Origin: Clostridia bacterium
GTDB taxonomy: Bacteria; Bacillota; Clostridia; Christensenellales; Borkfalkiaceae
Direction of reading: 5' to 3'
DNA: 44,452 nt
Assembly: GCA_017507005.1 (NCBI GenBank)
Contig: JAFWBT010000020.1
Location: 1 to 44,452, forward strand
The notes below the pieces were generated by a model, which made no database searches, had not been told where the DNA came from, and saw nothing but the letters and a program-made list of their open reading frames with translations. This document shows, piece by piece, positions 7,364 to 37,985 of the stretch (its first letter is position 1; the number at the start of each line of letters is the position of its first letter). A program made the translations under genes and the position numbers.

Positions 7364-7381
7364 ACCCATGTACGCGTTGAA
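7364..7381 (+). repeat. Dispersed 18-bp motif, copy 1
   Basis: ACCCATGTACGCGTTGAA lies between the PHP gene and the VanW gene. It is identical to 37902-37919 inside mtaB and close to the other copies listed here. A shorter relative, CATGTACGCGTTTAAC, overlaps the mnmG terminator at 1863-1878. Confidence 0.7.
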
Positions 7382-7423
7382 TTAAAAAATCACGCGGATA
7401 CATATAGGAGAGTGGTGTGGGCT

Positions 7424-8251
7424 ATGAAAAGGGATAAAACGGATAGAAAAAGAACGGCGCTCTGGGGAATAAAGAGCGTTTTTCTTTTATTTTTTTGTGT
7501 TTTTTACGCTTTTTGCGGTGTAAAAACGCCGATTGTAGACAAAAAGGCTAGGGCAGAACAACAAAAGTGGGTAAAAATGTCGGCGTATACGACCTATTAC
7601 GATACAAAGGACGGGGGCAGGTGTGAGAATATCGCCATTGCAGCGCGGCTAATCGACGGCGTAACGATACAGCCGTACGGGGAATTTTCCTTTAATCAAA
7701 CGGTGGGGCGGCGCACGGAAGAGGCGGGCTTTCGGCAGGCGAAAATTATCGTCAACGGCGAATACGTGCTCGGCGTGGGCGGCGGGGTTTGTCAGGTGAG
7801 CACGACGCTGTATAACGCCGCGTTAAAATCGGGCTTGACGGTGTTAGAATACCATCCGCACTCCTTGCTCGTGTCCTACGTTGCGCCCTCGCGGGACGCA
7901 ATGGTGTCCACGCATAACGATTTGCGGCTGTTGAATCCCTACGCCTATCCTATTCGATTGCGCGCGGCGGTGTTCGACGGCGGTATTAAAATCGCCTTTT
8001 TTGGGGAAAAGGAGGGGGACAGGTACGAGATTACGTCGAAAATCATAGAAGAATTGCCACCGCCTGCGCCCATAGTAAAGATAGGGGAAAAGGAAGAAAT
8101 TTTACGCCGTGAAAAGATGGGCGCGCGCAGTGAAACGTACTTGGAACGCTATCGAAACGGGCGTTTGCTTTCTCGCGTGCGCCTGCGTGAGGACGTCTAC
8201 CGTCCCGTTCAGGGAATAATCGTCAAAAAAGTTGATTTTTCGATGAATTAA
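7424..8251 (+). CDS. VanW family protein, membrane-anchored
   Basis: An N-terminal hydrophobic segment (about residues 18-36) acts as signal or anchor. The VanW domain follows, with GEFSFNQTVGRRT and the hallmark GGGVCQVSTTLYNAAL. VanW proteins occur in vancomycin-resistance clusters but mostly outside them in clostridia; their biochemical role is unknown and this copy implies no resistance. The C-terminal 60 residues are charged and beta-rich, possibly a G5-like extension. Start: ATG 7424 follows TGGTG; in-frame GTG codons at 7412 and 7415 lie close to AGGAG 7406-7410 and are alternatives. The surroundings do not point to a pathway. Confidence 0.85.
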   Translation: MKRDKTDRKRTALWGIKSVFLLFFCVFYAFCGVKTPIVDKKARAEQQKWVKMSAYTTYYDTKDGGRCENIAIAARLIDGVTIQPYGEFSFNQTVGRRTEEAGFRQAKIIVNGEYVLGVGGGVCQVSTTLYNAALKSGLTVLEYHPHSLLVSYVAPSRDAMVSTHNDLRLLNPYAYPIRLRAAVFDGGIKIAFFGEKEGDRYEITSKIIEELPPPAPIVKIGEKEEILRREKMGARSETYLERYRNGRLLSRVRLREDVYRPVQGIIVKKVDFSMN

Positions 8252-8276
8252 ATAGGCTAAAATTGCCGTCAAACGA

Positions 8277-8305
8277 TTGTGTTTTTTCTAAAAAAGTGTT
8301 ATAAT
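8277..8305 (+). promoter_or_regulatory. Promoter of asnS
   Basis: TTGTGT (8277-8282) and TATAAT (8300-8305) are 17 bp apart. The leader of about 70 nt folds into a hairpin (GGAAAAG and GTCG pairing with CGACTTTTCC, roughly 8324-8357), but has none of the conserved T-box sequences. Confidence 0.8.
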
Positions 8306-8380
8306 AAGGAAGTATAAAATACGGGAAAAGCGTCGCAAGACGAAGATTCGACTTTTCCTTGGCACAAAGGCAGGTAAAAC

Positions 8381-9775
8381 ATGGAGAGAATACAGCTGAA
8401 AGAGATTAACGTCAACCTTTCCGCATACGACGGAAAAACCGTTACGGTGGCTGGCTGGGCAAAGACCATTCGCGATTCCAAGGCGTTTGGCTTTATCGAG
8501 CTGAACGACGGTAGCTGTTTTAAAAATACGCAAATCGTTTTTGAACGTGCAAACCTTGAAAATTACGACGAAATCGCAAAGGAAAACGTCGGTTGCGCGT
8601 TGATTGTGACGGGTGTCGTGGTATCCACGCCCGAAAACAAACAGCCGTACGAGATTAAGGCAACGGCGATTACGGTAGAGGGGGAATCCACGCCCGATTA
8701 TCCCTTGCAGAAAAAACGCCACAGCGTAGAATTTTTGCGTGAGATAGCCTATCTTCGTCCCCGTACCAACCTTTTTGGCGCGGCGTTCCGTATCCGTAGC
8801 GAAGCGGCGATTGCTATCCATAAATTCTTCAACGACCGTGGGTTTGTGTACGTGCATACGCCCATCATCACGGGCAGCGACTGCGAGGGCGCAGGCGCAA
8901 TGTTCCAAGTGACGACCTTTGATTTGGACGAAGTGGCGAAAAACGGCAAACCCGTCGATTATAAAAACGACTTCTTCGGTACGCGTGCGGCGCTCACGGT
9001 GTCGGGGCAGCTCAGCGCGGAAACGTACGCAATGGCGTTTGGCAATGTGTATACGTTCGGGCCGACGTTCCGTGCGGAGCATTCCAACACGGCGCGTCAC
9101 GCGGCGGAATTTTGGATGATTGAGCCAGAAATGGCGTTCTGCGATTTGGCAGGGGATATGGACGTGGAAGAAGCGATGGTGAAATACATTATCGATTACG
9201 TTTGCGAAATGTGCAAGGACGAGCTGAACTTCCTCAATCAGTTTGTGGATAAGGGCTTGCTGGAAAGACTGAAAAACGTTTCCGAAAACGCGTTCGTGCG
9301 TTTGACGTATACCGAAGCGATTGAAATTCTCAAACAAAACGCAGACAAGTTCGACGATAAGAATATTTTCTGGGGTAAGGATTTGCAGAGCGAACACGAG
9401 AAATTCCTCACCGAACAGGTGTATAAACGTCCCGTATTCCTCACCGATTACCCGAAAGAGATAAAGGCGTTCTATATGAAACAAAACCCCGATGGGAAAA
9501 CGGTGGCGGCGGCAGACTTGCTCGTGCCCGGGATTGGGGAACTTTGTGGCGGTTCGCAAAGAGAGGACGACTACGACAAGCTCGTCAACCGTATCAAGGA
9601 GCTGGGCATGAACCCCGAAGATTATTCGTGGTATCTCGATCTTCGTCGCTACGGCGGCACGACGCACAGCGGTTTTGGTATGGGCTTTGAACGTATGGTA
9701 ATGTACCTGACGGGTATTGCGAATATCCGTGACGTCCTGCCGTACCCTCGTACGTTCGGTGATTTGAAATACTAA
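8381..9775 (+). CDS. asnS: Asparagine-tRNA ligase
   Basis: The 464-residue class IIb synthetase has an N-terminal OB-fold anticodon-binding domain ([25 protein letters not shown]). The catalytic core contains motif 2 ([24 protein letters not shown]) in split form and motif 3 near the C-terminus ([15 protein letters not shown]). It is AsnRS rather than AspRS by overall similarity. It charges tRNA-Asn directly. AGG precedes the ATG. The gene has its own promoter, and no terminator was seen before plsX, so asnS, plsX and rnc may be co-transcribed. Confidence 0.96.
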
Positions 9776-9850
9776 TCCCGAAAGGCGAATAGGACGAAAG
9801 GACAAAACGGCGTATAGGCAAATACGTTTACGAGTATGGGAGAAAAAGCT

Positions 9851-10903
9851 ATGACGAAGATCGTAATAGACGCAATGGGCGGCGATTTTGCGCCGAGACA
9901 GCAGGTATTGGGCGCGGTGGACGCGTTGAACAAGGACAAGGATTTGTATTTAATTCTCTGCGGCGACGAAACGCAGATTAAAGAAGTGCTTGCCGAGTGC
10001 AAATACGACGAGAGCCGTATCGAAATCGTCCACACGACGGAAGTAATCGATATGAACGAAGTGCCGACGAAAGCGGTGAAGACGAAAAAGGATTCTTCCA
10101 CCGTCGTTGCGTTCCGCCTATTGAAAGAGGGCAGAGCGGACGGTTTGGTATCGTCTGGCTCGACGGGCGCGGTGCTGACGGCAGGCGTGCTCGTTTTAGG
10201 CAGAATCAAAGGGGTGTCCCGTCCTGCGCTTTGTCCCATTATCCCTAACCATAAAGGCGGCGGCACGTTCCTTTGCGACTGCGGCGCGAATTTGGAATGC
10301 AAACCCATCAACCTCGTGCATTTCGCGTTGATGGCGTCGGCGTACGCGCAAACGGTGTACGGCATTGAAAAACCGTCGGTCGGTCTGCTGAACAACGGCA
10401 CGGAAGACCATAAGGGCTTGTTGTTGCAGCAAGAAACGAACGCTTTGCTCAAAAAGCTGGATTGTATCAACTACGCAGGTAACCAAGAAGGGCGCGACAT
10501 TATGTTCGGCGACGTCGACGTTATGGTAGCGGACGGCTTTACGGGTAATATCGCTATGAAATCGGCAGAGGGCTGCGGCAAAGCAGTGTCTACCATTATG
10601 AAAAAGGAATTCAAGCGCAATCTTTGGACGATGCTGTGTGCGGTTCTTTCGGGCGGCGTTATTAAAAAGATTAAAAAAGGTCTCGATTACGAGGGTGTTG
10701 GCGGCGCTATGTTCTTGGGTTTGACGAAAGCGGTCGTCAAAGGCCACGGCAACGCAAAGGCACGCAGTATTTCGGTGTGTATCGAGCAAGCGGCAAACGC
10801 GGTGCGCGGAGATATGACGTCGAAGATTAAAGAGCTGGTGGATAGCGTGGATTTGGACGCAATCGCGGCGGTGTCGGCGGCGAACGCTGTGACGGCAGAG
10901 TAA
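9851..10903 (+). CDS. plsX: Phosphate acyltransferase PlsX
   Basis: PlsX converts acyl-ACP to acyl-phosphate, the acyl donor for PlsY in phospholipid synthesis. The N-terminus IVIDAMGGDFAP and the internal SSGSTGAVL and DGFTGNIAMK blocks are family hallmarks. ATG 9851 is chosen because GGGAG (9838-9842) lies 8 nt upstream; an in-frame ATG at 9836 has no such site. The usual neighbours fapR and acpP are absent and rnc follows after 15 bp, so the acyl carrier protein gene must lie elsewhere. About 350 residues, normal length. Confidence 0.96.
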   Translation: MTKIVIDAMGGDFAPRQQVLGAVDALNKDKDLYLILCGDETQIKEVLAECKYDESRIEIVHTTEVIDMNEVPTKAVKTKKDSSTVVAFRLLKEGRADGLVSSGSTGAVLTAGVLVLGRIKGVSRPALCPIIPNHKGGGTFLCDCGANLECKPINLVHFALMASAYAQTVYGIEKPSVGLLNNGTEDHKGLLLQQETNALLKKLDCINYAGNQEGRDIMFGDVDVMVADGFTGNIAMKSAEGCGKAVSTIMKKEFKRNLWTMLCAVLSGGVIKKIKKGLDYEGVGGAMFLGLTKAVVKGHGNAKARSISVCIEQAANAVRGDMTSKIKELVDSVDLDAIAAVSAANAVTAE

Positions 10904-10918
10904 AAAGAGGACGAAACG

Positions 10919-11575
10919 ATGGCGTTTCCATACGCAGAGATAGAAAACAAAATAGGCTACGTGTTTGAGGACAAAGCGCTCTTAAAAGAGGCGTTCACTC
11001 ACTCCACGTACGCCAACGCGCACGGCGGTAAGGATAACGAACGCTTGGAATACCTCGGCGACGCGGTGTTACAGCTCGTCGTTACCGAGTGGCAGTACAA
11101 AGACGACGAACGCGCTTCCGAGGGCGAGCTGACGCGGGAAAGACAACTGCTCGTCTGCGAGGACGCGCTGTACGAGGCGGTGCAAGAGCTGAACGTGAAA
11201 GGGTATCTGCTCGTCGAAGGCAGTCGCGCAAACGTAGGGAAAAAGACGATATCTAGTCTGTTTGAAACGCTGATTGCGGCGATTTATCTCGACGGCGGGT
11301 ACGCGCCTGCAAAATCGTTCATCTTACGCTACGGCAGATTGCGCGCGTTGACAAAGCCGCAAAATCCCAAGGGGGAATTGCAGGAATATTTGCAAAAGCG
11401 CGGTGAAGAACCGCCTACGTACGAGAGTAAAAAAACGGGCAAGGACAACGAGCCTACCTTTTATTGCGTAGCTTTGGCGCGCGGCAGAAGCGCGACGGGC
11501 GAGGCGCGCAGTAAACGCGCGGCAGAACAAATCGCCGCGGAAAAACTGTTGCAAATTTTAAAAAACGAGGACTAA
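10919..11575 (+). CDS. rnc: Ribonuclease III, with an altered metal-site residue
   Basis: The endonuclease domain has the signature NERLEYLGDAVL (residues 40-51), and a C-terminal dsRNA-binding domain spans about 148-216. RNase III cuts double-stranded RNA in rRNA precursors and mRNAs. Two of the four metal-site acids align with Glu44 and Asp48, and Glu116 matches E. coli Glu117. The position of E. coli Asp114 is Ser113 (ISSLFETLIAAIYLDGG, usually ADxFEA). This residue contributes to metal binding in characterised enzymes, so activity may be lowered, or a nearby acid may substitute. The rest of the protein is intact at 218 residues. It follows plsX closely. Confidence 0.93.
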   Translation: MAFPYAEIENKIGYVFEDKALLKEAFTHSTYANAHGGKDNERLEYLGDAVLQLVVTEWQYKDDERASEGELTRERQLLVCEDALYEAVQELNVKGYLLVEGSRANVGKKTISSLFETLIAAIYLDGGYAPAKSFILRYGRLRALTKPQNPKGELQEYLQKRGEEPPTYESKKTGKDNEPTFYCVALARGRSATGEARSKRAAEQIAAEKLLQILKNED

Positions 11576-11702
11576 CGTTTTCGTGAGTGTTATCAAAGGC
11601 TCGCAAACGTTTGTAGGCGTTACGTGTAGATAAAAAATTTGTCAACACATTGAAAAACGAAAAAAATAAAAAAGATATAGATAATATCGCAAGGAGTACA
11701 TT

Positions 11703-14700
11703 TTGGATTTAAAGGAAATACAATTAGTCGGTTTCAAATCCTTTGCGGACAAAACGACGATTCGCTTAGAAGAGGGCGTAACGTGTATTGTAGGTCCGAA
11801 CGGCTGCGGTAAGAGTAACGTGGCGGACGCAGTGCGTTGGGTGCTCGGTGAGCAGTCGGCAAAGAGCTTGCGTGGTTCCAACATGCAAGACGTTATTTTC
11901 GGCGGTACGATTGAGCGTAAACCGCAGTCTTTCTGCGAAGTAACGCTGGTATTCGATAACGAAAAACGTATTTTTGATATGGACACGCCGGAGGTCGCTA
12001 TGACTCGCCGTCTGTATCGTACGGGTGAGAGTAAATACCTCATCAACAGCCAACCTAGCCGTTTGAAAGATATCGTAGCGTTGTTCCACGGTATCGGCTT
12101 GGGTAAAGAGGGCTATTCGATTATCGGTCAGGGTAAGGTCGAACAGATTATGAACGCGCGCCCTGAAGACCGTCGTTTGATTTTTGAAGAAGCGACGGGG
12201 CTTATGGTGTTCAAATCGCGCAAACAGGAAATCGAGCGTAAAATCGAAGATTCCAACGCAAACCTGTTCATCTATCGTCAGCGTATCGACGAAGCGGAAC
12301 GCCGTCTTGGGCCTTTGGGCAAGCAAGCGGAAGCTGCGCGCGAATACAACGAATATTCGCAGTCGTTGAAAATCAACGAGGCGAACACGTACATATACCG
12401 TTACGAGAATGCGGAAAACGAAAAGGGCAAGTTCAAGAGGGACATTGCCACGATTTCCGATAAGATTATTTCGCTGAACACGCAAATCGAACGTATCAAC
12501 CGTAAACTGGACGAAAACCGCGACAAAATCAATCACGCAGACGTACAGCTTACCGAGCTGAACGACCGCCGTGTAGAGTTGTCCGTTGGTAACGAGAGAA
12601 AGGACGGCGAATTGAAGCTGGCGAGAGAACGTATCAAGACGTATCGTTCGCAAATCGCGGCGGCGGTAGAGGCGTTGGCGGCAAGCAAGACGCGTATCGG
12701 TGAAATTGACGACGAAATCGCTATCACGACGAAGAAAAACGGCGAGGCGGTAAAACGCATTAGCGAGCTGGAAACGCAGACGGAAGTGCTCCGCGCTGCC
12801 GTTGCCGCGCTCGATAAAAAGATAGAAGTCTTTGAAAAACTGTCCGACGAAACGCATCGTTCGCAGTTGTCCGAGGCGGAAAATCTTGCGGAAATGAAAA
12901 AGAACCTCGGTACGTTGGCGGCGCGTATGGAAGCCGCTCGCGACCGTATTAACGAACTGACGAACGCTCTGAAAAAGGCGGAAGATAGAAAAGACCGCTT
13001 AGAGGACGAGCTTAATTCCGTCAGAAAGGATATGCGTAAATTGCGCGACACCTCCTCCGAGGGTATGCGTGAATTTGAGGAAAAGCAGGAAGAAGCGCGT
13101 GAAATGCAGCTTGCATTGAACGACCTCAATCAAGACTTGTTCTCCTCGAACGGTCAGTTGGCGTCCTTGCGTGAGAACCTTGAAATGTATATCAGCTTGA
13201 AAAATCGTTTCGAGGGGTATAAGGAATCCGTCCGCCGTCTGTTGTCGGTGGCAAAGACCAATCCCGAAGTCAACAGGCATTTGCACGGTGCGCTCGCGGA
13301 TATCGTGACGACGGACCAAAGATATGAAAAGGCTATTGAAACGGCGTTTGGCGGCGCTATGCAAAACGTCGTTACGCCCTCGGCAGACGACGCGAGATAT
13401 CTCATTGAATACCTCAAACGTACCAACGGCGGTGTCGTAACGTTCCTGCCTGTATCCAGTATGCGTGCCCGTCCCGATTCGCGTGAAATTCAGCGCGCGC
13501 TGGACGAACGCGGCGCAATGGGGCTTGCAACGCAGCTCGTGCAATACGACGATTATTATTACAACGTCGTGAGCAACCTGCTCGGCAATACGCTTATTTG
13601 CGACACGATTGCAAACGCGACGACGATTGCGAAAAAATACGGCAACCTCTTTAAGATTGTAACGCTCGACGGCGATATCGTCGCAACGAGCGGCGCCATG
13701 ACGGGTGGTAGTACCCGTCGTGATTCGGGTTCGCTCCTTTCCAACGAACGTAAAATTCAGGAATGTAAAGAAAATATCGCTCGTAAGGAAAAATATATCG
13801 AAAAGCTGAAAGTGATGATTGCACAGCACGAACGCGAACGTCAGGCGGCGGAAGACGCGGTAGAGGAGCTTCGTGATAAATATCAAGGCGCAACGAGCGA
13901 AATCGTCGGTCTTACCCAGCGCGAAACGGCGCTCACGCAGCAAATCACCGAGGCGGAAAGCGATATCGAAACGTACGCAGAGGCACTGTCGGAATTGAAG
14001 AGAAAGTTCAAAGAGCTTGAAGAGGAAGAAGCAAACTCCTCGCTCAGCGAAGAACAGCTGGCAGAACGCCGCAAGAACGCAGAAGCGGAAATGGCGAATC
14101 AGCGTAGCCAGTGCGACCAGTTTAAGGAAGACCGCGCGGAAAAGAGCAGTCTTTTGCGTGATTTGGAAATCGAATACGCGGCGCTGAACGCAGACGTGAA
14201 GAAACAGCGTGAAACGATTGAACGTATTACGACGGAAAAGGAAGAGCTCGTAAAACGTATCCTTGAAATGGAATCGGAAAAGACGGAAACGGAAGCAAAG
14301 CTCGAAGGTTTGGAAGCGGAAGCGGAAGAAAAAGAGCTCACTGAAGAAGAAAAGGCTGCCGTGCAAGAGATTATGGATAAAATCGCGCAGTTCACCAAGG
14401 AAAAGGAAGAGCTGAACGCGTCCAATATCGCCTTGGAAGAAGAGAGAACGCAGCTGCAAGAAACGCTGACAAAGAGCAGCGACAAGCGTTATAAATGCGA
14501 AATTGAAATCAGTAAAATCGACACTAACCTCGAAAATATGCGTTTGCGTATCGAAGAGGCGTACGGTATGGATTACGAGGGCTGTTTAAAGCTGCGCAAG
14601 GAAAACTTTGACGTGGAAGAGGCGGCGACGCTCATCACCGCGTTAAAGCGTAAGATTACTATGCTCGGCGCGGTAAACCCCAACGCCGTGGAAGAATACG

Positions 14701-15299: not shown

Positions 15300-15333
15300 A
15301 ACGGCATATATACTTCGCATCTCTGCCGTTTTA
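15297..15333 (+). terminator. Hairpin at the smc stop codon
   Basis: TAAAACGGCA (15297-15306, starting with the smc stop codon) pairs perfectly with TGCCGTTTTA (15324-15333). The T-run is only the 3' arm itself, so it is a moderate terminator. The spacer 15334-15455 holds a second CGCATCTCTGCC block and no gene. Confidence 0.55.
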
Positions 15334-15455
15334 CTTCGGTTGAAGAGAGCGAGAGGAAAAACTACTTTGCAATACGGCGCTGTGCGCCTAGTCTTGCTCG
15401 CATCTCTGCCTATTTTATGGGCGGGGAGTGCCGTGTAGAAAGACGGTATATGGAT

Positions 15456-15481
15456 ACGGGCGACGTTTGTCGCCCGTTTTT
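15456..15481 (+). terminator. Intrinsic terminator before ftsY
   Basis: ACGGGCGAC (15456-15464) and GTCGCCCGT (15469-15477) form a perfect stem with a GTTT loop, followed by TTTTT. It isolates smc from ftsY, so ftsY should need a promoter that I could not identify. Confidence 0.85.
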
Positions 15482-15510
15482 AACAAAAACAAAAAAAGGA
15501 GTGCCTTTTT

Positions 15511-16407: not shown

Positions 16408-16415
16408 AATGGGCG

Positions 16416-16433
16416 TACCATGTACGCGTTGAA
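16416..16433 (+). repeat. Dispersed 18-bp motif, copy 2
   Basis: TACCATGTACGCGTTGAA starts 9 nt after the ftsY stop codon. It is the best match to the consensus. Confidence 0.7.
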
Positions 16434-16460
16434 CGATAAAAAGTGATAAGGAGGAGTGGT

Positions 16461-19670: not shown

Positions 19671-20291
19671 ATGAAAAAAGTGTGGAACGCGGAAGAAAAA
19701 TTGCAATACGAGCGCGCTTTGCTTGCCAAAGGCTATCGATATATCGCAGGCGTTGACGAGGTGGGCAGAGGTCCCTTGGCGGGCCCTGTCGTGTGTGCGG
19801 CGGTGATTATGCCGCTTGACGAGGCGGAGCTAATCGTGGGCGTGGACGATAGTAAAAAACTGTCCGAAAAGAAACGCGAACAGCTCGCCGAGGAGATTAA
19901 AAAACGCGCGTACGCCTATACCATAGTCGAGGTGAACGAGAAAATCATCGACGAAATCAATATTCTCGAAGCGACGAAACGCGGTATGAAAGAGGCGATA
20001 GAAACGCTCGGGATTGCGGCGGACGTCGTGCTGACGGACGGCAATATGACCATTGACGTAGCCACGCCGCAGCATAGCGTTGTGCACGGCGACGCGTTGT
20101 CCTATTCCATCGGCGCGGCGAGCATTATCGCCAAGGTGTATCGTGATAAGTTGATGGACGAGTTTGCTTTGCAATATCCGCAGTACGGCTTTGAAAAGAA
20201 CAAGGGTTACGGTACGGCGGCGCATATCGCAGGAATTAAGGAGCACGGGTTATGCGAAATTCACCGCAGGACGTTCACAAAAAAGTTTTAG
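19671..20291 (+). CDS. rnhB: Ribonuclease HII
   Basis: RNase HII removes ribonucleotides from DNA and RNA primers. Catalytic acids are in GVDEVGRGPLAGP (Asp and Glu near residues 29-30), with further conserved acids in LTDGN and the region around SIIAKVYRD. 206 residues, complete. The 3' end overlaps yraN by 40 bp, which points to translational coupling. Confidence 0.96.
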   Translation: MKKVWNAEEKLQYERALLAKGYRYIAGVDEVGRGPLAGPVVCAAVIMPLDEAELIVGVDDSKKLSEKKREQLAEEIKKRAYAYTIVEVNEKIIDEINILEATKRGMKEAIETLGIAADVVLTDGNMTIDVATPQHSVVHGDALSYSIGAASIIAKVYRDKLMDEFALQYPQYGFEKNKGYGTAAHIAGIKEHGLCEIHRRTFTKKF

Positions 20292-20769: not shown

Positions 20770-21579
20770 ATGGTGATTTATATCGAGTACGCCCTTTTTG
20801 AAAACTTCCTATTCGACAGCGTCCTGCTCTTTTTGGCGTTAAAGGCTGCAAAAGAAAACGTCCGACCGTTCAAGGTAGGACTTGCGGCGGTGATGGGGGC
20901 GGTGTTTGCCGTTGTTTTCCCGCTGTTGCGGCTGTCTGTTTTTGGCGCGCTCGTCTTAAAAACGTCCGTCGGATTTTTGCTTTGCTTAATCGCCTTTGGG
21001 AACATAAAAACGAAAAAGGATAGGGGCAGGTATGCGTTGACAACATTTTTTTTCTTCACGTTCACGTTTTTATTCGGCGGCGTATTGCTCGGTGTAACAC
21101 AAGATTTTTTCAAAAATAAAGTGCCGAGCGTGTTCGTGATGACGGCGTTTGCGATTTTGACGGTTTTAACGAGTGTTTTTATTCAAAAACTCTACCAAAA
21201 ACGGCGTTTGCAGCGTTTTATCTATCCTTGTACGGTGTTTTACGGAGAAAATATAATAAAAGTGGACGCTTTTTTAGACAGCGGCAATCGCGCGCAAAAA
21301 AACGGTTTGCCCGTTTGCTTCCTATCGCTCGATACGTTATACGAATTGCGAAAAGAGGAGATTTGGCATAAAGGTGAGGGGCAGGTATGCGATGAAATAG
21401 AAATACACACGCTTGGCGGTGTGAAAAAATTGCCTATTTATCAAGGCGAAATCGTTTTGAAAAAAAGCGTGGGAGAAGAAAGAAAAAAGGTATATTTAGC
21501 GCCTGCGACGAATATGGTATGTAGAGAGTATTCCATGATATTGAGCGCGTACGTATTGGAAGAAACGGGCGAAAAGTGA
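20770..21579 (+). CDS. spoIIGA: Sigma-E processing peptidase SpoIIGA
   Basis: The N-terminal half has about five membrane segments. The C-terminal half is an aspartic-protease-like domain with the catalytic motif FLDSGN (Asp170). SpoIIGA cleaves the pro-sequence of sigma-E in the mother cell after a signal from the forespore. sigE follows after 10 bp. Start: ATG 20770 has no close ribosome binding site. A seven-codon frame (20756-20776), better placed after AAAGGGG and AAGG, ends across this ATG, so coupled translation is possible. Confidence 0.93.
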
Positions 21580-22309: not shown

Positions 22310-22393
22310 AAAATACACAAGTAGCGCATACTCAACTCAACCCTGCCCCCTTCGTTTTGATTTTTTACATACGGAAAAGGAGGGTGAGAAAGT

Positions 22394-24867: not shown

Positions 24868-24885
24868 TACCATGTACGAGATGAA
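24868..24885 (+). repeat. Dispersed 18-bp motif, copy 3
   Basis: TACCATGTACGAGATGAA, two differences from consensus, directly after the 75-bp repeat region. Confidence 0.6.
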
Positions 24886-24899
24886 ATTTTTAACAAACC

Positions 24900-24917
24900 A
24901 CCCATGTACGGGTTGAA
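24900..24917 (+). repeat. Dispersed 18-bp motif, copy 4
   Basis: ACCCATGTACGGGTTGAA is one difference from copy 1. It lies 32 bp after copy 3 in the same orientation and just before yhbY. Confidence 0.65.
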
Positions 24918-28310: not shown

Positions 28311-28339
28311 TTGACAAAATGGCAAAAAAAGGCTATAAT
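28311..28339 (+). promoter_or_regulatory. Promoter of the SDR-esterase-acetyltransferase unit
   Basis: TTGACA (28311-28316) and TATAAT (28334-28339), 17 bp apart. Confidence 0.9.
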
Positions 28340-28343
28340 ATAC

Positions 28344-28369
28344 TTGAAATAGGCAGCGGCATATTTCAA
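28344..28369 (+). promoter_or_regulatory. Inverted repeat at the transcription start (possible operator)
   Basis: TTGAAATA (28344-28351) and TATTTCAA (28362-28369) are perfect arms around a 10-nt GC-rich centre. The site covers the expected start of transcription (about 28346), so a repressor site or a 5' hairpin in the mRNA are both possible. Confidence 0.5.
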
Positions 28370-28394
28370 TATATTATATAAGGAATGAAAAAGT

Positions 28395-29156: not shown

Positions 29157-29163
29157 AGCATAA

Positions 29164-30786
29164 ATGGTGTCTAAAAAAATGAGAAAATTTATTTGTTGCA
29201 TATTGGCGGCAACGACCTTTTTCGTAGGGGCGGCATCCTCTTGCTCGCTCCTGCAAAAAACGCCTGCTTCCGAAAATAGTATTTCCGAGTCCGTTCAGGA
29301 AAAAGAGTACGCGTTGTCCTTGAAAAAGACTTTGTATAAGCTCGAAGACGGGCAAACGGCAACGTTACAATTAAATTTCACCGTGGACGGCGTGGAGGCG
29401 GATTGGTCGTTGTTGACGTTTTCGTCTAGTGACGATAGCGTTGTAACGGTAAGCGCGGACGGCGTGATGACGGGCGTGGCAGGCGGCAAAGCCAACGTCA
29501 CGGTGACGGACGGCACCAACACCGTGAGTGCGACGGTGAACGTCGTTATGCGTACCTATAAGATAAAACTCTCGACGGAAAGCTTGATATTGCCTATCGG
29601 TGAGAGTGCGCAGGTGACGGCGACGGCATACTTTGGCTCGAAAGAGGAAGAGGGCGCGGCATTGTCGTGGCAGTCGTCTAATCCCGACGTTGCTACGGTG
29701 GAAGACGGCTTGATTACCGTTGTGAACAGCGGCAATGCGGAGATTTCCGTTTCCTATCAAGGCGTAACGGAGAGTGTTGACGTGTTGGGCGTTGTGAAAA
29801 CGACGGCGGAGAACGTAAATTCGTTCAGCGAAGAGTATATCAATATTTACGGGCGTAGCTACGTTTCTGCGGGCGATTTGCATTTCGACCACGCGGCGAA
29901 CGCAGTGGAGCTTGGTATGTTCGGTGCGTCGCTCAGCGTCAGTATTTACGCGACGGCGGACAGCTATATGCGCGTGTACGTGGACGGCTCGAAGACGGGC
30001 AAACGTTTGACTGTGACAAGAGGCACGGCGGACTATACGGCGGCGGAGGACTTGGAAGAGGGGTATCATACGATTCGTATCGTCAAGGCATCGGAAGAAC
30101 AAAACGCGCAATGGGCAATTCGCTCGTTTACAGCAGAGGAGTTCTTCGTTGTGCCTGAAAAATCCGATTTGAAGATAGAATTTATCGGCGATTCCATTAC
30201 GGCAGGCTACGGCGTTCTCGGTGCAACGGGGGTGAGTTGGAGCGTGGAAAATTCCGATTGTGCAAAGAGCTATGCTTATCTCGCGGCGGAAGCACTGAAT
30301 GCCGATTATTCCATCGTGGCGTGGAGCGGCATTTGCACCAAAGCGTATTATTGGGCGAGCGGCCTGAATATGGAAACGCTGTACGGTTACGTGTCCAGTA
30401 CGAATAGACAGACGTATGCGGCTGATTTTGACGCGGACGTGGTTGTGCTGAATCTGGGTACGAACGAGGGCTCGTATATATCGTCGGGTTTACCCAACGC
30501 AGGTTCTTACGGGATGCAATTCCCCGCCGATTATAAGGCGTTCCTGCAAGCGATTCGCGCGAAAAATCCCAACGCGTATATTATTTGTTTGTACGGTATG
30601 ATGGGCAGAAACGTTGCGATTCAAACAGGGATTCAAATGGCGATTGAAGAGCTTGGCGACGAAAAAGTGGCGTATAATCCTTTTACTTTTGAACCGAATA
30701 CGTTGGCGGCGAACGGCCACCCGAGCAGTATGGCGCAAAAGAATTGGGCGGACGCTTTGGCGGAATATATAAGGACGATAGCATGA
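29164..30786 (+). CDS. Lipoprotein carbohydrate esterase (CE2-like SGNH) with two BIG2-type domains
   Basis: The 540-residue secreted lipoprotein has a signal with candidate lipid Cys27 (ASSC). Two bacterial Ig-like BIG2 domains follow (about 50-130 and 132-208, each ending in a VSADG/GNAEISV-type strand). A jelly-roll region begins INIYGRSY (about 225-330), as in CE2 esterases. An SGNH domain has GDSIT (Ser344), WSGI (Gly389), LGTNE (Asn434) and GHP (His519). CE2 enzymes remove O-acetyl groups from polysaccharides such as xylan or mannan. Target is inferred only. The 3' end overlaps the acetyltransferase start as ATGA. ATG 29164 or ATG 29179 could be the start; neither has a strong SD, and coupling to the SDR gene is likely. 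Confidence 0.88.
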   Translation: MVSKKMRKFICCILAATTFFVGAASSCSLLQKTPASENSISESVQEKEYALSLKKTLYKLEDGQTATLQLNFTVDGVEADWSLLTFSSSDDSVVTVSADGVMTGVAGGKANVTVTDGTNTVSATVNVVMRTYKIKLSTESLILPIGESAQVTATAYFGSKEEEGAALSWQSSNPDVATVEDGLITVVNSGNAEISVSYQGVTESVDVLGVVKTTAENVNSFSEEYINIYGRSYVSAGDLHFDHAANAVELGMFGASLSVSIYATADSYMRVYVDGSKTGKRLTVTRGTADYTAAEDLEEGYHTIRIVKASEEQNAQWAIRSFTAEEFFVVPEKSDLKIEFIGDSITAGYGVLGATGVSWSVENSDCAKSYAYLAAEALNADYSIVAWSGICTKAYYWASGLNMETLYGYVSSTNRQTYAADFDADVVVLNLGTNEGSYISSGLPNAGSYGMQFPADYKAFLQAIRAKNPNAYIICLYGMMGRNVAIQTGIQMAIEELGDEKVAYNPFTFEPNTLAANGHPSSMAQKNWADALAEYIRTIA

Positions 30787-31400
30787 CGGAATTTGAAAAA
30801 ATGAGCGCGGGAAAGCTCTACGATACCTCGGAAACAGAGCTTGCGAAAATGCGTTGCAAAGCGCATAAATTGAGCAAGGATTATAACGATACGTACGAGG
30901 ACGAGCTGGAAAAACGCGCGGCAATTATCAAGGAATTGTGTCCGAAATTGGGCGAGGGGACGTATTTGCAAGGTCCGTTGCAGTTTGATTACGGCGCGAA
31001 TTTTATAACGGGCAAGAATTGCTATGTGAATTTCAATTTAGTTGTGCTCGATTGCGCGCCCGTAACACTTGGGAACGACGTGTTTATCGGCCCGGATTGT
31101 TCGCTCGTGCCGCCTATGCATCCATATTTGACGGAGGAAAGGAAACTTCGTTTTAAGGAAGACGGAACGGCGTACGATTTGGAATATGCAAAACCGATTG
31201 TCATCAAGGACGGCTGTTGGCTGGCGTCGAACGTCACCGTTTGCGGCGGCGTGACGATTGGGAAAAACTGTGTAATCGGCGCAGGGAGCGTAGTAACGCG
31301 GGATATTCCCGACGGCGTTTTAGCGGCAGGAAATCCTTGTCGGGTGATTCGGCATATAACAAAAGAGGACTCGATTGCTTTAAAAAAAGAATTATATTAA
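30783..31400 (+). CDS. Maltose/galactoside O-acetyltransferase family protein
   Basis: The 205-residue protein has the N-terminal MTEFEKMSAGKLYD mac-type domain and a left-handed beta-helix of hexapeptide repeats ending in GAGSVVTRDIPDGVLAAGNPCRVI. The catalytic His of the family lies in PPMHPYL. Such enzymes acetylate sugars with acetyl-CoA in the cytoplasm. The start ATG 30783 overlaps the esterase stop (ATGA), indicating translational coupling. A terminator follows directly. Confidence 0.93.
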   Translation: MTEFEKMSAGKLYDTSETELAKMRCKAHKLSKDYNDTYEDELEKRAAIIKELCPKLGEGTYLQGPLQFDYGANFITGKNCYVNFNLVVLDCAPVTLGNDVFIGPDCSLVPPMHPYLTEERKLRFKEDGTAYDLEYAKPIVIKDGCWLASNVTVCGGVTIGKNCVIGAGSVVTRDIPDGVLAAGNPCRVIRHITKEDSIALKKELY

Positions 31401-31403
31401 ACG

Positions 31404-31442
31404 AAAACAGCGAAGCTAAAAAATACGGCTTCGCTGTTTTTA
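31404..31442 (+). terminator. Intrinsic terminator of the acetyltransferase unit
   Basis: AAAACAGCGAAG (31404-31415) and CTTCGCTGTTTT (31429-31440) pair perfectly and run into a T-tract. Confidence 0.92.
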
Positions 31443-31449
31443 TACGTCA

Positions 31450-31499
31450 ATACCGTGTACGAGTTGAAAATAATAACAGCATACCGTGTGCGAGTTGAG
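31450..31499 (+). repeat. Dispersed 18-bp motif, copies 5 and 6 in tandem
   Basis: TACCGTGTACGAGTTGAA (31451-31468) and TACCGTGTGCGAGTTGAG (31482-31499) lie 31 bp apart in the same orientation, a spacing close to that of copies 3 and 4. The rest of the dnaK upstream spacer (31500-31680) is AT-rich, with a GCCGT/ACGGC hairpin at 31649-31662 before AAGGAG, and no CIRCE site. Confidence 0.65.
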
Positions 31500-31635
31500 T
31501 TTTTTAGATTAAAGGCAAAAAATATACGATATTATATATTACGCGCGCGCAAACTTGGGTAAATTTTACACGTAATAAAAATTTTTTTAATTTTTGTGTT
31601 TAACGAGGTTTTTTGACGGTTACATATAACTGTAA

Positions 31636-33480
<1,845 letters not shown>

Positions 33481-33500
33481 TTAACGGTGATAAATTTGCG

Positions 33501-33518
33501 TTCAACTCGTACATGGGT
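33501..33518 (-). repeat. Dispersed 18-bp motif, copy 7 (inverted)
   Basis: The minus strand reads ACCCATGTACGAGTTGAA, 21 nt after the dnaK stop codon. It is the only spacer copy clearly in this orientation relative to the upstream gene. Confidence 0.65.
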
Positions 33519-33547
33519 GGCGCGAATTGGCAAAAAGCGTAATAAAT

Positions 33548-33571
33548 CGGGTTTGGTTTACACCAAGCCCG
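33548..33571 (+). other. Hairpin in the dnaK-dnaJ spacer
   Basis: CGGGTTTGG (33548-33556) pairs with CCAAGCCCG (33563-33571), one G-U pair. No T-run follows, so it is not an obvious terminator; it may protect or process the dnaK mRNA. TTAACGGTG occurs at 33481 and again just before dnaJ. Confidence 0.5.
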
Positions 33572-33671
33572 TAAACGCTATATAAGGGATAAGGATATAC
33601 GCAAGAGAGTGTTAAAAAAGCTTGTGTAAGGCTAAGGCTTGCCTTGCGTTTAAATCATTAACGGTGTAATT

Positions 33672-34823
33672 ATGGCAGATAAAAAGAATTATTACGAAAT
33701 ACTCGGCGTGGATAAAAAAGCAACGCCCGAGGAAATAAAATCGGCGTATCGAAAGCTGGCAATGAAATACCACCCCGACCGTAATCAGGGTGACGCTGCG
33801 GCTGCGGAAAAATTCAAGGAAATCAACGAGGCGAACGAAACGCTGTCCGATCAGCAAAAACGCGCCGCGTACGATTACGAGCTGGAACACCCTGGTATGG
33901 GCGGCTTTGGCGGCGGTTTCGGCGGTGGCGGCTTCGAGGGCGGCTTTGGGGATTTCTCCGATATTTTCAGCAGTATTTTCGGTGGTGGTTTTGGCGGCGG
34001 CGCAAGAACTACGCGTTCGGCAGTCGGGGAAGATATCCAGCGCGAGATGACGCTTTCTTTTATGGACGCGGTGAAAGGCTGTAAAAAGACGGTGTCGTAC
34101 AATCGTAACGTACTGTGCGAAGATTGTAAAGGCACGGGCGCAAAGCACGGCACGGAATACAGCACTTGTTCGCGCTGTCAAGGCAAGGGTGTTGTGCAGC
34201 AGGTGCAAAATACTATGTTTGGCAGAACGATTCGTCAGAGCGTTTGTCCCGATTGTTCGGGTACAGGCAGGACGATTAAGGAAAAATGCCCCGAGTGTAA
34301 AGGCAAAGGCGCGATTAGAAAGGAAACGACGCTGTCCTTGGATATCCCCGCGGGCGTGGATACGGGCAGCTATATGAAGAAAAAGGGCTTTGGGCAGTCC
34401 GTCCAAGGCGGCGTGCCAGGCGATTTGATTATCGTCTTTAAGGTAGAGCCGCACAAAATCTTTACGCGTGATCGGTTTGATTTGCTTATCGATTTACCCA
34501 TCTCCTTTAAAACGGCGGCGCTCGGCGGCGTGGTGAAAGTGCCGACAATCGACGACACGTTCGATTTCACTATTCCCGAGGGTACGCAGAGCGGTCAGGT
34601 GTTCACGATTCGTGGCAAAGGGATTCGTTCGGCGCGTAACGGCACGGGCAATCTGATTGTGCGCGTGCAGGTGGAAGTGCCTACAAAGCTTTCCAAATCC
34701 CAGAAAAAAGAACTGGAAAAAATGGAAGACGAAATCGAGCTGAAACAGTACGAGAAGATGAAACGGTATTCGGACAACGTTGAGGCGCTGTACGGTGAAA
34801 AACCGTTCAAGAATAAGAAATAA
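33672..34823 (+). CDS. dnaJ: Chaperone protein DnaJ
   Basis: This is a complete type I J-protein of 383 residues. It has a J domain with HPD (near residue 35), a Gly/Phe-rich stretch (about 75-115), four zinc-binding CxxCxGxG repeats ([32 protein letters not shown]) and C-terminal substrate domains. It stimulates DnaK ATPase and delivers substrates. The ribosome binding site is weak (GGTG). A terminator follows. Confidence 0.97.
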
Positions 34824-34826
34824 AAA

Positions 34827-34869
34827 ATACAAACAGCGGCAGTCGGGTATTCGGCTGTCGTTTTTGTAT
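34827..34869 (+). terminator. Intrinsic terminator of dnaJ
   Basis: CGGCAGTCG (34837-34845) pairs with CGGCTGTCG (34852-34860) with two G-U pairs; outer ATACAAA and TTTGTAT extend the stem around a T-run. Confidence 0.82.
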
Positions 34870-34967
34870 GGCGAGGGTGGTGGGGATTAACCGTAAAGCA
34901 ATACGAGACATATCGCTACGGCGGCGGAATATCGCCTATCGCGTTGTGAATAAGATATTGCAATAAG

Positions 34968-34996
34968 TTGACTTTCAGGGCGGAGCGTGGTATAAT
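34968..34996 (+). promoter_or_regulatory. Promoter of the prmA-rsmE-mtaB-hinT unit
   Basis: TTGACT (34968-34973) and TATAAT (34991-34996) are 17 bp apart, just before the GAGAGGTG ribosome binding site of prmA. Confidence 0.9.
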
Positions 34997-35017
34997 GAAA
35001 GACGAGAGGTGTAAAAA

Positions 35018-35968
35018 ATGAAATATATTGAATTGACGATACATACGACGACGGAAGCGAGCGAGATTATTTCGGATATTATGTGGGCATACACCGATTA
35101 CGGCGTTACCATTTGCGATATCAACGACATTATTGCCCTGCAAACGGCGAAAGAAACGACGTATTGGGATTATATGGACGACGAACTGACGGCGGATAAG
35201 CCCTCGGACGTGTTGGTGAAATGTTACGTCGCGGAGGACGTCGCAACGCAGGTGATAGGCTCTATTTTGGAGGATATCGCGCGAGCGAAAGAGCTTAGCG
35301 GCGGCGCAATCCCGTTCGGTACGTTGGAGGATACCAAGCGTAGCGTGGACGGCGACGATTGGATTGACGTATGGAAAAAACATTTCCGTCCTATTCATTT
35401 GGGACGTATCGTTGTCGTGCCGGAATGGATAGAATACACGCCTGCGGCGGGCGAAGAAGTGGTGTTGCTCGATTCTAATATGGCTTTTGGCACGGGCGAG
35501 CATGAAACGACGTCTATGTGTGTGGAGCTGATGCAGGAATATATAACGCCCGATTCGGTGTGTATCGACGTGGGCTGTGGCAGCGGCATTTTAGGTATTT
35601 CGGCTATCAAGCTTGGCGCGGCGAAGGCGTACCTTACCGATATCGACCCGATTGCGGTGGAGAGCGCGTTGCACAACAGCGAGCTGAACGCCGTTAGCGA
35701 TAAAACGGTGGTGGCGCATTCCAACCTTTTGGACGACGCGGATATCCAAGGGGATATTATGATGGCGAATATCACGGGCGAAGTGTTAAAGCTGTTGGCG
35801 CCGTCGATTCCTAAGAATTTGAAAAAGGACGGCGTTTTAATCCTCAGCGGCATTATCGAGAGCCGTTTAGAAATGGTGAAAGCGGCGTACGAAGCCGTGG
35901 GGATGGAAGTGACGTTCGAGCGGAGAAAAGGCGAGTGGTTTGCACTCGTGTTAAAGCATAAAAATTGA
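35018..35968 (+). CDS. prmA: Ribosomal protein L11 methyltransferase PrmA
   Basis: The N-terminal substrate-recognition domain is followed by a SAM-binding fold with DVGCGSGILGISA and the active-site stretch NITGEVL (family NILA/NIxxxxL). It methylates L11. AFGTGEHETT is the family block before the SAM motif. 316 residues, normal. The unit dnaJ-prmA-rsmE-mtaB is a conserved Firmicutes order. Confidence 0.95.
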   Translation: MKYIELTIHTTTEASEIISDIMWAYTDYGVTICDINDIIALQTAKETTYWDYMDDELTADKPSDVLVKCYVAEDVATQVIGSILEDIARAKELSGGAIPFGTLEDTKRSVDGDDWIDVWKKHFRPIHLGRIVVVPEWIEYTPAAGEEVVLLDSNMAFGTGEHETTSMCVELMQEYITPDSVCIDVGCGSGILGISAIKLGAAKAYLTDIDPIAVESALHNSELNAVSDKTVVAHSNLLDDADIQGDIMMANITGEVLKLLAPSIPKNLKKDGVLILSGIIESRLEMVKAAYEAVGMEVTFERRKGEWFALVLKHKN

Positions 35969-35978
35969 GTTAGAGGGG

Positions 35979-35996
35979 TACCATGTCTGCGTTGAA
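35979..35996 (+). repeat. Dispersed 18-bp motif, copy 8, overlapping the rsmE start codon
   Basis: TACCATGTCTGCGTTGAA differs from consensus at two positions. Its ATG is the start codon of rsmE. Confidence 0.5.
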
Positions 35997-36702
35997 GAGA
36001 TTTTTTGTGGATAAAATCGAGGAAACTACCCGCTTGGAGGGGGAGGAGTTTGAGCACGCAAAAAACGTGCTCCGTATTGGCGCGGGCGCGGAGGTAATCC
36101 TTTTGGATAACAGCGGCAAGGAATACACGGCGATTGTGGCGCAGGTGGAGAAAAAATCTATGCTCTTGAACGTCGTGCGCGAGGAAGTGGGCGCGCGTGA
36201 GCCAAACGCGGACGTGTGCTTGCTGTTCGGATATTTAAAAAACGCCGATAAGAACGAATTTATCGTGCAAAAAGCAGTGGAGCTTGGCGTTAAAAAAATC
36301 GGCGTGTTTTCTTCGGAATATTCGTCGGCGTATATGAACGCGAACAAGCTGGAACGCCTGAACAAAGTTTCGAAAGAGGCGGCGAAACAATGCTTGCGCT
36401 CAGTGGCGCCCGTGGTGGAATATTACGATACGCTGCAAAAGGCGTTGGACGCGGCGAAAGGATATAAAAACAAGCTGTTTGCTTGTGAATTTGCGACGGA
36501 GAGCAAGTGCGACGTGGTGACGATAAAGGACGACGCGGCAATCGTAATCGGTAGCGAGGGCGGTTTTTCTCGCGCGGAAGAGGAGCTGGCGTCGGCGGCG
36601 GGCTTTGCGTCCGTGACGCTGGGAAAACGTATTTTACGCGCGGAAACGGCGGCGGTTGCGCTGACGAGCGTGGCTATGTTTGCGTTGGGGGAACTGCGAT
36701 GA
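35983..36702 (+). CDS. rsmE: 16S rRNA (uracil-1498-N3)-methyltransferase RsmE
   Basis: The 239-residue SPOUT methyltransferase has an N-terminal PUA-like region and the C-terminal knot motifs GSEGGFSRAEEE and TLGKRILRAETAA. It methylates U1498 near the decoding centre. AGAGGGG lies upstream of the ATG. The first residues MSALK come from the overlapping dispersed motif and precede the family-like RFFVDK start. The stop overlaps the mtaB start as ATGA. Confidence 0.95.
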   Translation: MSALKRFFVDKIEETTRLEGEEFEHAKNVLRIGAGAEVILLDNSGKEYTAIVAQVEKKSMLLNVVREEVGAREPNADVCLLFGYLKNADKNEFIVQKAVELGVKKIGVFSSEYSSAYMNANKLERLNKVSKEAAKQCLRSVAPVVEYYDTLQKALDAAKGYKNKLFACEFATESKCDVVTIKDDAAIVIGSEGGFSRAEEELASAAGFASVTLGKRILRAETAAVALTSVAMFALGELR

Positions 36703-37985
36703 AAGCGGTGGTGTATACGCTGGGCTGTAAAGTGAACGACGTCGAGAGCGGCTCGTTAATACGCGGCTTGGAAGAGCTTGGCTACGAAGTATCGCGCGAG
36801 ATGGAAAAGGCGGATTTGTATATCGTCAACACCTGCGCGGTGACGGCGGAGGCAGAGCGTAAGAGCCGTCAAACGGTGGGTAAGGCAATCAAGTGCAATC
36901 CCGAGGCGAAAGTAATCGTTTGCGGCTGCGCGTCGGAGAAAAAAGCGGAGGCATTTTTGGAAAAGGGACATACCGTGTACGCAGTGACGGGCGCAAAAGC
37001 CAAAAATAAGGTGTTAGAAATAGTAAAATCGGGCTTTGCGGAGACGTTTGGTGGCAGGCAGGTATGCGACGAAGACAAAATTTACGAAGAAATGCTGACG
37101 CCGAAGTGCCTGAAAACGAGAAATTTTGTAAAAATCCAAGACGGCTGTAATCGGTTTTGTTCCTATTGTATCATCCCCTATCTTCGCGGCCGTAGCCGTT
37201 CGCGTAGCGTAGAGGGCGCGGCGAAAGAGATTTTGGAAAGCACGGCGCAAGAAACGGTGGTGACGGGGATTGATATTTCCGAATATAAAGACGAGCAGGG
37301 GCGCGACCTTGCCGATTTGATGTTGGCAATCAAGGACGCTGACACCCGTATCCGTTTGGGTTCGATTGAGGTCAGCCTTATCACGCCGCGGTTTTTGGAC
37401 GCGTTGAAAGAGGTGAAAAGCTTTGCGCCGCAGTTCCATTTGTCGTTGCAGAGCGGCTCGGATAAGGTGTTGAAGAGTATGAATCGCCACTATACGCGGG
37501 CGGAATATTTAGAAAAGTGCGCTATGATTTACGAGGCGTTTCCAAACGCGGCGATCACGACGGATATTATCGTTGGGTTTCCGACGGAAACGGAAGAAGA
37601 TTTTTGTGATTCGTTGCGGATTGTGGAGGAGGCGGGCTTTGCGCAGATTCACGCCTTTCCCTATTCGCCGCGTGAGGGCACGAACGCGTATAAAAAATAT
37701 AAAGAACTGCCGTTTGTTGTCAAGAAAGAGCGTGTAGAACGCCTGCTGAAAAAAGGCGCGGAAGAAAAAACGAAGTATATGCAGCGTTTTATCGGACAAG
37801 AACTATTGCTCGTACCCGAGCTGTGTATTGACGGCTACACCGAGGGGTATTCGGAGAATTATATCCGCGTCTACGTTGAGGGCAATATTGCAAAACGCCC
37901 TACCCATGTACGCGTTGAACGCCTTTTTAAAGATGGAGTGTCGGCTGTGGTGACGGCGGGAAAGGCTGAAAATTATTTGCCGTAA
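36699..37985 (+). CDS. mtaB: tRNA threonylcarbamoyladenosine (t6A37) methylthiotransferase MtaB
   Basis: The radical-SAM enzyme has N-terminal cluster Cys10, Cys46 and Cys77, radical-SAM CNRFCSYC (Cys150, 154, 157), and a C-terminal TRAM-like domain. MtaB adds methylthio to t6A37 to give ms2t6A. TLGCKVNDVES is its signature N-terminus. 428 residues, normal. The TRAM region contains an exact copy of the dispersed 18-bp motif (37902-37919). The start overlaps rsmE by 4 bp. Confidence 0.95.
   Translation: MKAVVYTLGCKVNDVESGSLIRGLEELGYEVSREMEKADLYIVNTCAVTAEAERKSRQTVGKAIKCNPEAKVIVCGCASEKKAEAFLEKGHTVYAVTGAKAKNKVLEIVKSGFAETFGGRQVCDEDKIYEEMLTPKCLKTRNFVKIQDGCNRFCSYCIIPYLRGRSRSRSVEGAAKEILESTAQETVVTGIDISEYKDEQGRDLADLMLAIKDADTRIRLGSIEVSLITPRFLDALKEVKSFAPQFHLSLQSGSDKVLKSMNRHYTRAEYLEKCAMIYEAFPNAAITTDIIVGFPTETEEDFCDSLRIVEEAGFAQIHAFPYSPREGTNAYKKYKELPFVVKKERVERLLKKGAEEKTKYMQRFIGQELLLVPELCIDGYTEGYSENYIRVYVEGNIAKRPTHVRVERLFKDGVSAVVTAGKAENYLP
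37902..37919 (+). repeat. Dispersed 18-bp motif, copy 9, inside mtaB
   Basis: ACCCATGTACGCGTTGAA is identical to 7364-7381 and encodes THVRVE in the TRAM-like domain. Confidence 0.6.

Follow-up and report, generated by a model that had tools for sequence, protein, structure and literature searches.

The subject of this report is a dispersed DNA motif in a 44,452-nucleotide stretch from an uncultured gut member of the Clostridia family Borkfalkiaceae (GenBank assembly GCA_017507005.1, contig JAFWBT010000020.1). This stretch, here called the window, is an entire contig (C8) of a genome, G000, that measures 1.56 Mb and is 71% complete. An earlier note had drawn attention to an 18-bp motif in its spacers. 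There is good support for reading the motif as a polar site at the DNA level, present genome-wide and maintained by selection or drive. Beyond what the earlier note had reported, the greater part of its sites lie within genes, a second form exists, and the motif spreads over the genus and the family.

At a weight-matrix score above 12, the window contains 23 sites, whereas 50 Markov shuffles gave no site (39 times) or one (11 times), 11 in total. Nine of the 23 are intergenic and 14 lie within or overlap a predicted gene. They are listed with the coordinates of the core, the strand, the setting and the score; gene calls come from a simple dicodon script, with approximate gene starts, family names marked Pfam come from that database, and sharing refers to other genomes compared (G numbers).

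1862..1877, + strand: intergenic core within the 3' arm of a hairpin that resembles a terminator (by eye); score 33.9
7366..7381, + strand: core with exact consensus, intergenic, between a PHP-domain gene and a VanW-like gene (Pfam); score 41.3
16418..16433, + strand: core with exact consensus, in the spacer of an SRP54-type GTPase gene and an ABC ATPase gene (Pfam); score 43.8
22331..22346, - strand: core of the second form, intergenic; score 25.1
24870..24885, + strand: core, first of a direct pair in the spacer of an Obg-type GTPase gene and a CRM (YhbY) gene (Pfam); score 32.0
24902..24917, + strand: core, second of the pair with 24870..24885 (32 bp); score 25.7
31453..31468, + strand: core, first of a direct pair; score 23.9
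31484..31499, + strand: core, second of the pair with 31453..31468 (31 bp); score 17.4
33501..33516, - strand: core in the dnaK-dnaJ spacer (gene names by eye); score 37.5
909..924, + strand: core of the second form in gene 773-1711, shared with G029; score 34.2
7617..7632, + strand: weak core in the VanW-like gene, not shared with G035 or G029; score 16.8
8019..8034, + strand: core in the VanW-like gene, identical core in G035, no call in G029; score 26.4
19921..19936, + strand: weak core in gene 19671-20291, without a counterpart in G035 or G029 at score 16; score 18.3
21026..21041, + strand: core in gene 20770-21579, not shared with G035; score 35.7
21128..21143, + strand: weak core in gene 20770-21579, not shared with G035; score 19.4
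21381..21396, + strand: core in gene 20770-21579, shared with G035; score 32.7
35981..35996, + strand: core across the start codon of an RNA-methyltransferase (RsmE-type) gene (Pfam); score 30.1
36973..36988, + strand: core in the radical-SAM gene 36699-37985, shared with G035, not G080 or G001; score 24.7
37058..37073, + strand: core in the radical-SAM gene 36699-37985, unshared among three species compared; score 18.5
37904..37919, + strand: core in the radical-SAM gene 36699-37985 (Pfam), shared with G080, not G035 or G001; score 41.3
39935..39950, + strand: core in gene 39829-41295, shared with G035, not G080 or G001; score 28.5
40523..40538, + strand: core in gene 39829-41295, shared with G035, not G080 or G001; score 28.1
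41489..41504, + strand: weakest core, in the small predicted gene 41365-41562; score 14.9

With up to three mismatches, the 18-mer has nine matches in the window against 0.03 expected from dinucleotide shuffles, which bears out the earlier statement that chance matches are not expected at this length. Six of the seven spacer copies then named are among the nine; the seventh, at 31482, was found with four mismatches to the core pattern, the shorter relative near 1863 lies at 1861-1877 with two mismatches, and the gene copies at 35979 and 37902 were confirmed, together with an additional one at 40521. Across its own genome, MCCATGTACGCGTTGAA occurs 145 times with up to two mismatches (87 forward, 58 reverse), and the reversed pattern not at all. 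The weight matrix, which was iterated and covers 46 bp, gave 196 sites in 435 kb in its first run on G000 at a threshold of approximately two false sites per data set. At the cut-off used for the scan of five genomes from one genus (score >14), G000 has 191 sites in 435,336 bases and, in sequence held out from training, 98 in 294,316 bases versus 0 in the control; this amounts to 289 sites in the 729,652 bases scanned (47% of the genome), or approximately 0.4 per kb, and extrapolates to approximately 600 per genome. The other four genomes yielded 138 sites in 400,000 bases (G035), 47 in 180,000 (G016), 34 in 178,001 (G066) and 31 in 100,000 (G004), so that the five together hold 539 sites in 1.59 Mb, against a single one in the reversed-sequence control.

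The motif as a whole is degenerate and longer than the 18-mer, which is one of its forms alongside GGGGCAGGTATGCGTTGAA and GGGGCATGTACGCG. A full site consists of an A/T tract, AAAACG, approximately six variable bases, the core [CG]C[AG][TG]GTA[CT]G[CA]G[TA]TGAA and a weak A/T tract. In an alignment of 88 copies, chosen by no more than two core mismatches or a GCAGGT start and thus unselected in their flanks, the A/T tract lies at about -20 to -15, AAAA at -12 to -9, CG at -8/-7 and the weak downstream tract at +20 to +24, and core positions 1, 4, 8, 10 and 14 are invariant. Based on this core-aligned profile and the weight matrix, information spans at least 26 bp. Two overlapping forms are apparent among the intergenic sites of G000, AAAACG.gcCtA-CCATGTACGCGTTGAA (48 sites) and AAA.GAaaGGG-GCAGGTAtGCGTTGAA (24 sites). 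The most over-represented 10-mer is GGGGCAGGTA in the G035 sample and GGGGCATGTA in G000, with CATGTACGCG and TACCATGTAC among the next. An asymmetric DNA-binding protein would read approximately 26 bp, along with the flanking A/T tracts, on double-stranded DNA. The protein-binding site that the earlier note had offered as one possibility is supported, at the level of sequence, by the long asymmetric consensus with its A/T tracts, by direct pairs at helical-turn-like spacings in G000 and by retention against substitution. A second dispersed motif, suggested by the over-represented 10-mer GAGGCTGCTA, was rejected, since 12 of its 13 copies fall within 1.2 kb; this repeat region (G000 C13, approximately 62969-64170, L049) has its 12 copies mostly at steps of 69 bp or multiples thereof and perhaps belongs to a leucine-rich-repeat-type gene, a guess made without a search.

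Sites occur both in and between genes. Within the five genomes, 302 of the 539 are inside predicted genes, and densities per kb are 1.8 in convergent spacers, 1.06 in tandem spacers, 0.31 in divergent spacers and approximately 0.22 in coding DNA (302 sites in 1,392,552 coding bases). The motif thus withstands the check that had been proposed for it, i.e. genome counts against shuffled sequence and enrichment in spacers; the further claim that copies directly follow stop codons or terminators is true of part of them only, as the 14 window sites in or overlapping predicted genes make clear. The 103 in-gene sites of the first G000 sample (score >=16) are distributed along genes without clustering at their ends, and they prefer certain reading frames, with sense sites in frames f1, f2 and f0 numbering 49, 12 and 9, and antisense sites in frames f0, f1 and f2 numbering 25, 7 and 1. 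The promoter placement expected of a transcription-factor regulon is not seen, divergent spacers having the lowest density of any spacer class, and a promoter or sigma site, considered by inspection, was rejected because divergent spacers are poor in sites. The idea of a mini-open reading frame or start codon (ATG TAC GCG TTG) was likewise rejected as a general explanation, since substitutions are not codon-like; it is also contradicted by the majority of sites lying away from gene starts, many of them antisense.

Comparisons between species indicate how sites come and go. Of 59 comparisons of an in-gene site with another species, three have a gap in the core; the other 56 are ungapped there and divide into 21 with the site shared, 30 with it in G000 only and five with it in the other species only. 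A larger set comprised 241 comparisons, of which 38, gapped somewhere in the 46-bp window, were excluded; in the 203 ungapped orthologue comparisons, which cover 128 distinct sites and are not independent of one another, the site is kept (score >14) in 132, versus 15.2 expected from flank rates, 13.8 from codon-phase flank rates and 29.7 when as many differences as observed are scattered at random. Sites are created and maintained by substitution at fixed places, in and between genes, and in-gene sites are compatible with the code. The dnaK-dnaJ spacer, for which the query matched 55 of the 57 genomes in the genus sample, carries the site at the same place and in the same orientation in nine of the 30 loci read. 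Pairwise identity there is 86% in the core, 62% in the preceding 12 bases and 24-41% in the remaining spacer, the core value being partly by construction, as the nine loci were selected for the site. In-gene sites also tend to lie in genes with close orthologues in two of four genomes: G016 has 23 in 76.9 kb of genes with at least 60% identity, four in 21.6 kb at 40-60% and three in 59.5 kb with no orthologue sampled, and the corresponding figures for G066 are 18 in 68.2 kb, one in 10.9 kb and three in 80.0 kb. Two large site-free gaps (G035 C6 and G000 C16) hold carbohydrate and lipoprotein genes that look accessory by eye.

The motif has species and genus dialects. The exact degenerate core SCAKGTAYGMGWTGAA is present in 55 of the 57 genus genomes, at 0-127 per genome, with the reversed control at 0 in all 57, and GSCAKGTAYGMGWTGAA is absent from 247 other genomes of the order, all outside the genus. 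A related dialect exists in the sister-genus genome G120 (120-kb sample), where the top 10-mers are TACCATGTCC (printed as GGACATGGTA) and ACCATGTCCG; it was not seen in samples of 65-86 kb from G081, G098 and G037. With up to one mismatch, MCCATGTCCGMGWTGAA occurs 18 times in G120, 8-15 times in four of the five g119 genomes and 11 times in two more g28 genomes, and its reversed controls total nine over 121 genomes, with a maximum of two per genome; by motif, across the genus and its sister genera, g1, g28 and g119 are positive and g26 and g27 negative. In a scan of 396 genomes for the extended pattern with up to one mismatch, G000 has 215 matches, two genus members poor in sites have 20-25, G120 has 25, and no genome outside the family exceeds four, a value that the reversed control reaches there too. 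G029 has a separate dialect. No replacement motif was found in 80 kb each of the site-poor G001 and G062 after clustered repeats were filtered; the site-poor G063 and G080, inspected without that filter, may have a different dialect. The genome collection contains the exact 20-mer TACCATGTACGCGTTGAACG in 15 stretches, every one titled as Clostridia or Clostridiales metagenome-assembled genomes, 12 of them named after ruminant gut samples. A phage origin is counted as rejected: the viral collection has no contig with exact TACCATGTACGCGTTGAA and a single one with exact GGGGCAGGTAYGCGTTGAA, the second form (IMGVR_UViG_3300029305_010250, 4,956 bases, L236), which carries another motif site 42 bp further on and may be host DNA. 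Two side observations concern other words. The top 10-mer of the motif-poor G063, GACCCCAACG (C7, L163-L166), occurs eight times in 80 kb against 0.17 expected and may represent either a local repeat or a further motif, and the over-represented CTTTGTGTAA and CATGACTGAG in G029 C26 (L158-L160) are possibly another local repeat.

As to function, the site is tentatively read as working most like a self-DNA tag, comparable in behaviour to a DNA uptake sequence (DUS) or uptake signal sequence (USS), a reading that leads the field while falling short of probable. Such a tag agrees with the anatomy and density of the sites, with their compatibility with coding, with their placement at 3' ends and with the dialects; it is at odds with the polarity, with the direct pairs and with the pilus being missing, and the site is therefore not filed as a DUS or USS. 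Under the tag reading, DNA bearing the site would be preferentially taken in or recombined, and alleles with a good site would gain ground as relatives exchange DNA in a biased way (molecular drive), as with DUS and USS. The ComEC channel and DprA, for which there are matches in 57 and 56, respectively, of the 57 genus genomes, would be the conserved part of the route, and the receptor would be a protein other than the usual pseudopilus, a proposal made because that pseudopilus was not found. The comEC gene of G000 (C16, L054 10723-12384) reads 553 amino acids, shorter than Bacillus subtilis ComEC, and has two motif sites at its 3' end and just downstream. The fuller scenario, that a ruminant-gut Clostridia lineage evolved its own polar self-DNA tag with a reader unlike pilin and a pilus-independent, ComEC-based gene exchange, in which dialects separate species and genera, is possible though doubtful. 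As far as the searches show, such a tag would be the first outside the Proteobacteria.

Several observations weigh against a self-DNA tag. T2SSF, the inner-membrane protein of type IV pili (T4P) and Com pili, was found in only three of the 57 genomes and was not found in the site-rich G035 (93% complete), G011 (94%) or G027 (95%); ComEA exceeded the cut-off in none of the 57, weaker matches in 44 being, for the better ones, mostly in open reading frames of approximately 730 amino acids. Canonical pilus-based uptake was accordingly rejected as unsupported. One of the T2SSF-bearing genomes, G019 (C30 1-9000, L224), has what by eye is a type IV pilus-like operon, so that the pilus is patchy within the genus. 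ComEC and DprA matches also occur in control genomes that are not known to be naturally competent. The site is oriented along the inferred leading strand, and we know of no DUS with such an orientation; close pairs (<130 bp) are mainly direct, 34 versus 13 inverted, unlike the inverted terminator pairs of Neisseria. With orthologues poorly sampled, G000 and G035 lack the contrast between orthologue classes, at 48 sites in 172.2 kb (at least 60% identity), 12 in 33.3 kb (40-60%) and 45 in 172.2 kb (none) for G000, and 25 in 111.6 kb, 10 in 24.6 kb and 50 in 215.9 kb for G035. Finally, a third printed gap (G000 C7, approximately 3.9-14.9 kb) holds genes that look core by eye, which weakens the argument from core bias and slightly lowered the standing of the tag.

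Polarity also favours the main and close rival. That rival, in itself rather unlikely, is a polar site for chromosome organization or segregation, at which a nucleoid-associated protein or the partner of a DNA translocase would bind, perhaps cooperatively, and use replichore orientation, like FtsK-orienting polar sequences and SpoIIIE recognition sequences (KOPS/SRS) or matS. With the leading strand taken, as a proxy, from the local majority gene strand, the ratio of sense to antisense sites is 184:63 in majority-strand genes and 23:32 in minority-strand genes (Fisher p = 8e-6); intergenic sites, with direct clusters counted once, run along the majority strand by 58:22 (C-type) and 58:24 (G-type). 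GC skew agrees in direction (128:63 in G000, 96:42 in G035), and composition skew alone is insufficient to account for the polarity because G and C are evenly represented in the C-type core consensus. Direct pairs favour the rival too. Of the 34 same-orientation neighbours 24-130 bp apart, 18 are spaced at 28-32 bp and seven at 42-44 bp, which suggests binding to the same face, the remainder lying at 35, 37, 53, 55, 63, 65, 81, 85 and 102 bp; a helical phase test on the first G000 sample gave R = 0.74 at 10.5 bp (n=23), and in the pooled set R is about equal at 11-12 bp. The mostly missing pilus is a further point in favour of a chromosome-organizing site. Nevertheless, 30 of the direct pairs are in G000, three in G004, one in G016 and none in G035 or G066; the 13 inverted neighbours comprise nine in G000 (three at 42 bp) and four in G035 (with overlaps at 11 bp), these being all four close pairs of that genome. 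An essential segregation signal would not be expected to range from 0 to 127 exact matches across one genus, the bias in orientation is no more than approximately 2.5:1, the length of the motif greatly exceeds the 8 bp of KOPS/SRS, and sites are spaced along the genome in a random-like manner (coefficient of variation approximately 1).

A Chi-like hotspot, which would steer exchange or protect DNA ends in recombination and repair, is improbable. It would share the leading-strand polarity and the retention at orthologous places, but Chi measures 5-8 bp, as against >26 bp with A/T tracts at a fixed spacing here, and many species of the genus have few copies. Still less credit is due to an element acting in the transcript, be it a pause site, part of a terminator, or an RNA-processing or decay site, RNA processing having been one of the guesses of the earlier note. 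Enrichment at 3' ends and the sense bias in majority-strand genes are consistent with such an element. A crude test for terminator-like hairpins was run on 119 intergenic sites or clusters from four genomes: in its favour, 17 overlap a hairpin and 32 are situated downstream of one (another 13 are upstream); against it, 57 have none detected. Moreover, sites occupy both strands, minority-strand genes lack the sense bias, and the site between dnaK and dnaJ runs antisense to the two genes in each of the nine loci that share it. The footprint of a small mobile repeat, whether of the repetitive extragenic palindromic or miniature inverted-repeat transposable element type (REP/MITE), is very improbable and was a guess that the comparisons contradict: copies are many and dispersed, with tandem arrays in places, as in G004 (C17, approximately 61724-61828, L254), where four copies follow one another in direct orientation at steps of 29-30 bp, but the core is ungapped in 56 of 59 comparisons, although 38 of 241 are gapped in the wider 46-bp window, and in-gene copies keep the reading frame.

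According to passages of PMC5031613, sequence-specific DNA uptake is known from two families, both proteobacterial, and among titles and abstracts of the open-licence PMC literature no uptake-sequence motif was found for Firmicutes, Clostridia or Gram-positives. If the self-DNA tag is real, it would be a third independent case, in pilus-less Clostridia, and would allow uptake drive to be tested against selection for repair or another process; if the site serves chromosome organization instead, it would be an unusually long, polar and fast-changing one of that kind. The site list, the dialects and the retention in orthologues make the question testable in strain-level metagenomes, without cultivation.

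Among known systems, REP and MITE elements are likewise dispersed with some copies in spacers, whereas the present sites arise by substitution and over half are in genes. KOPS/SRS and Chi resemble the site in replichore orientation (inferred here), in being dispersed and in occurring in coding DNA; they differ in a length of 5-8 bp and, for KOPS, in a much stronger bias, and we know of none with flanking A/T tracts at a fixed spacing. The USS of Pasteurellaceae differ in sequence, and the present site has a longer informative core, a Clostridia host, a leading-strand bias and no T2SSF found in 54 of 57 genomes; the likeness lies in many copies on both strands, a core plus A/T tracts, which passages of PMC1852404 give as the extended USS pattern, a presence in genes and spacers, and dialects. 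The DUS of Neisseriaceae are 10-12 bp, with close pairs that, in Neisseria, are mainly inverted according to the same passages, whereas pairs here are mostly direct and no ComP/T4P system is apparent in 54 of the 57 genomes. The site nonetheless resembles them in its species dialects, a property of DUS described in part of PMC3630211, in conserved sites at permissive places, DUS being core-biased, permissively placed and themselves conserved in the account given in part of PMC2397512, and in the location of some sites within terminator-like hairpins.

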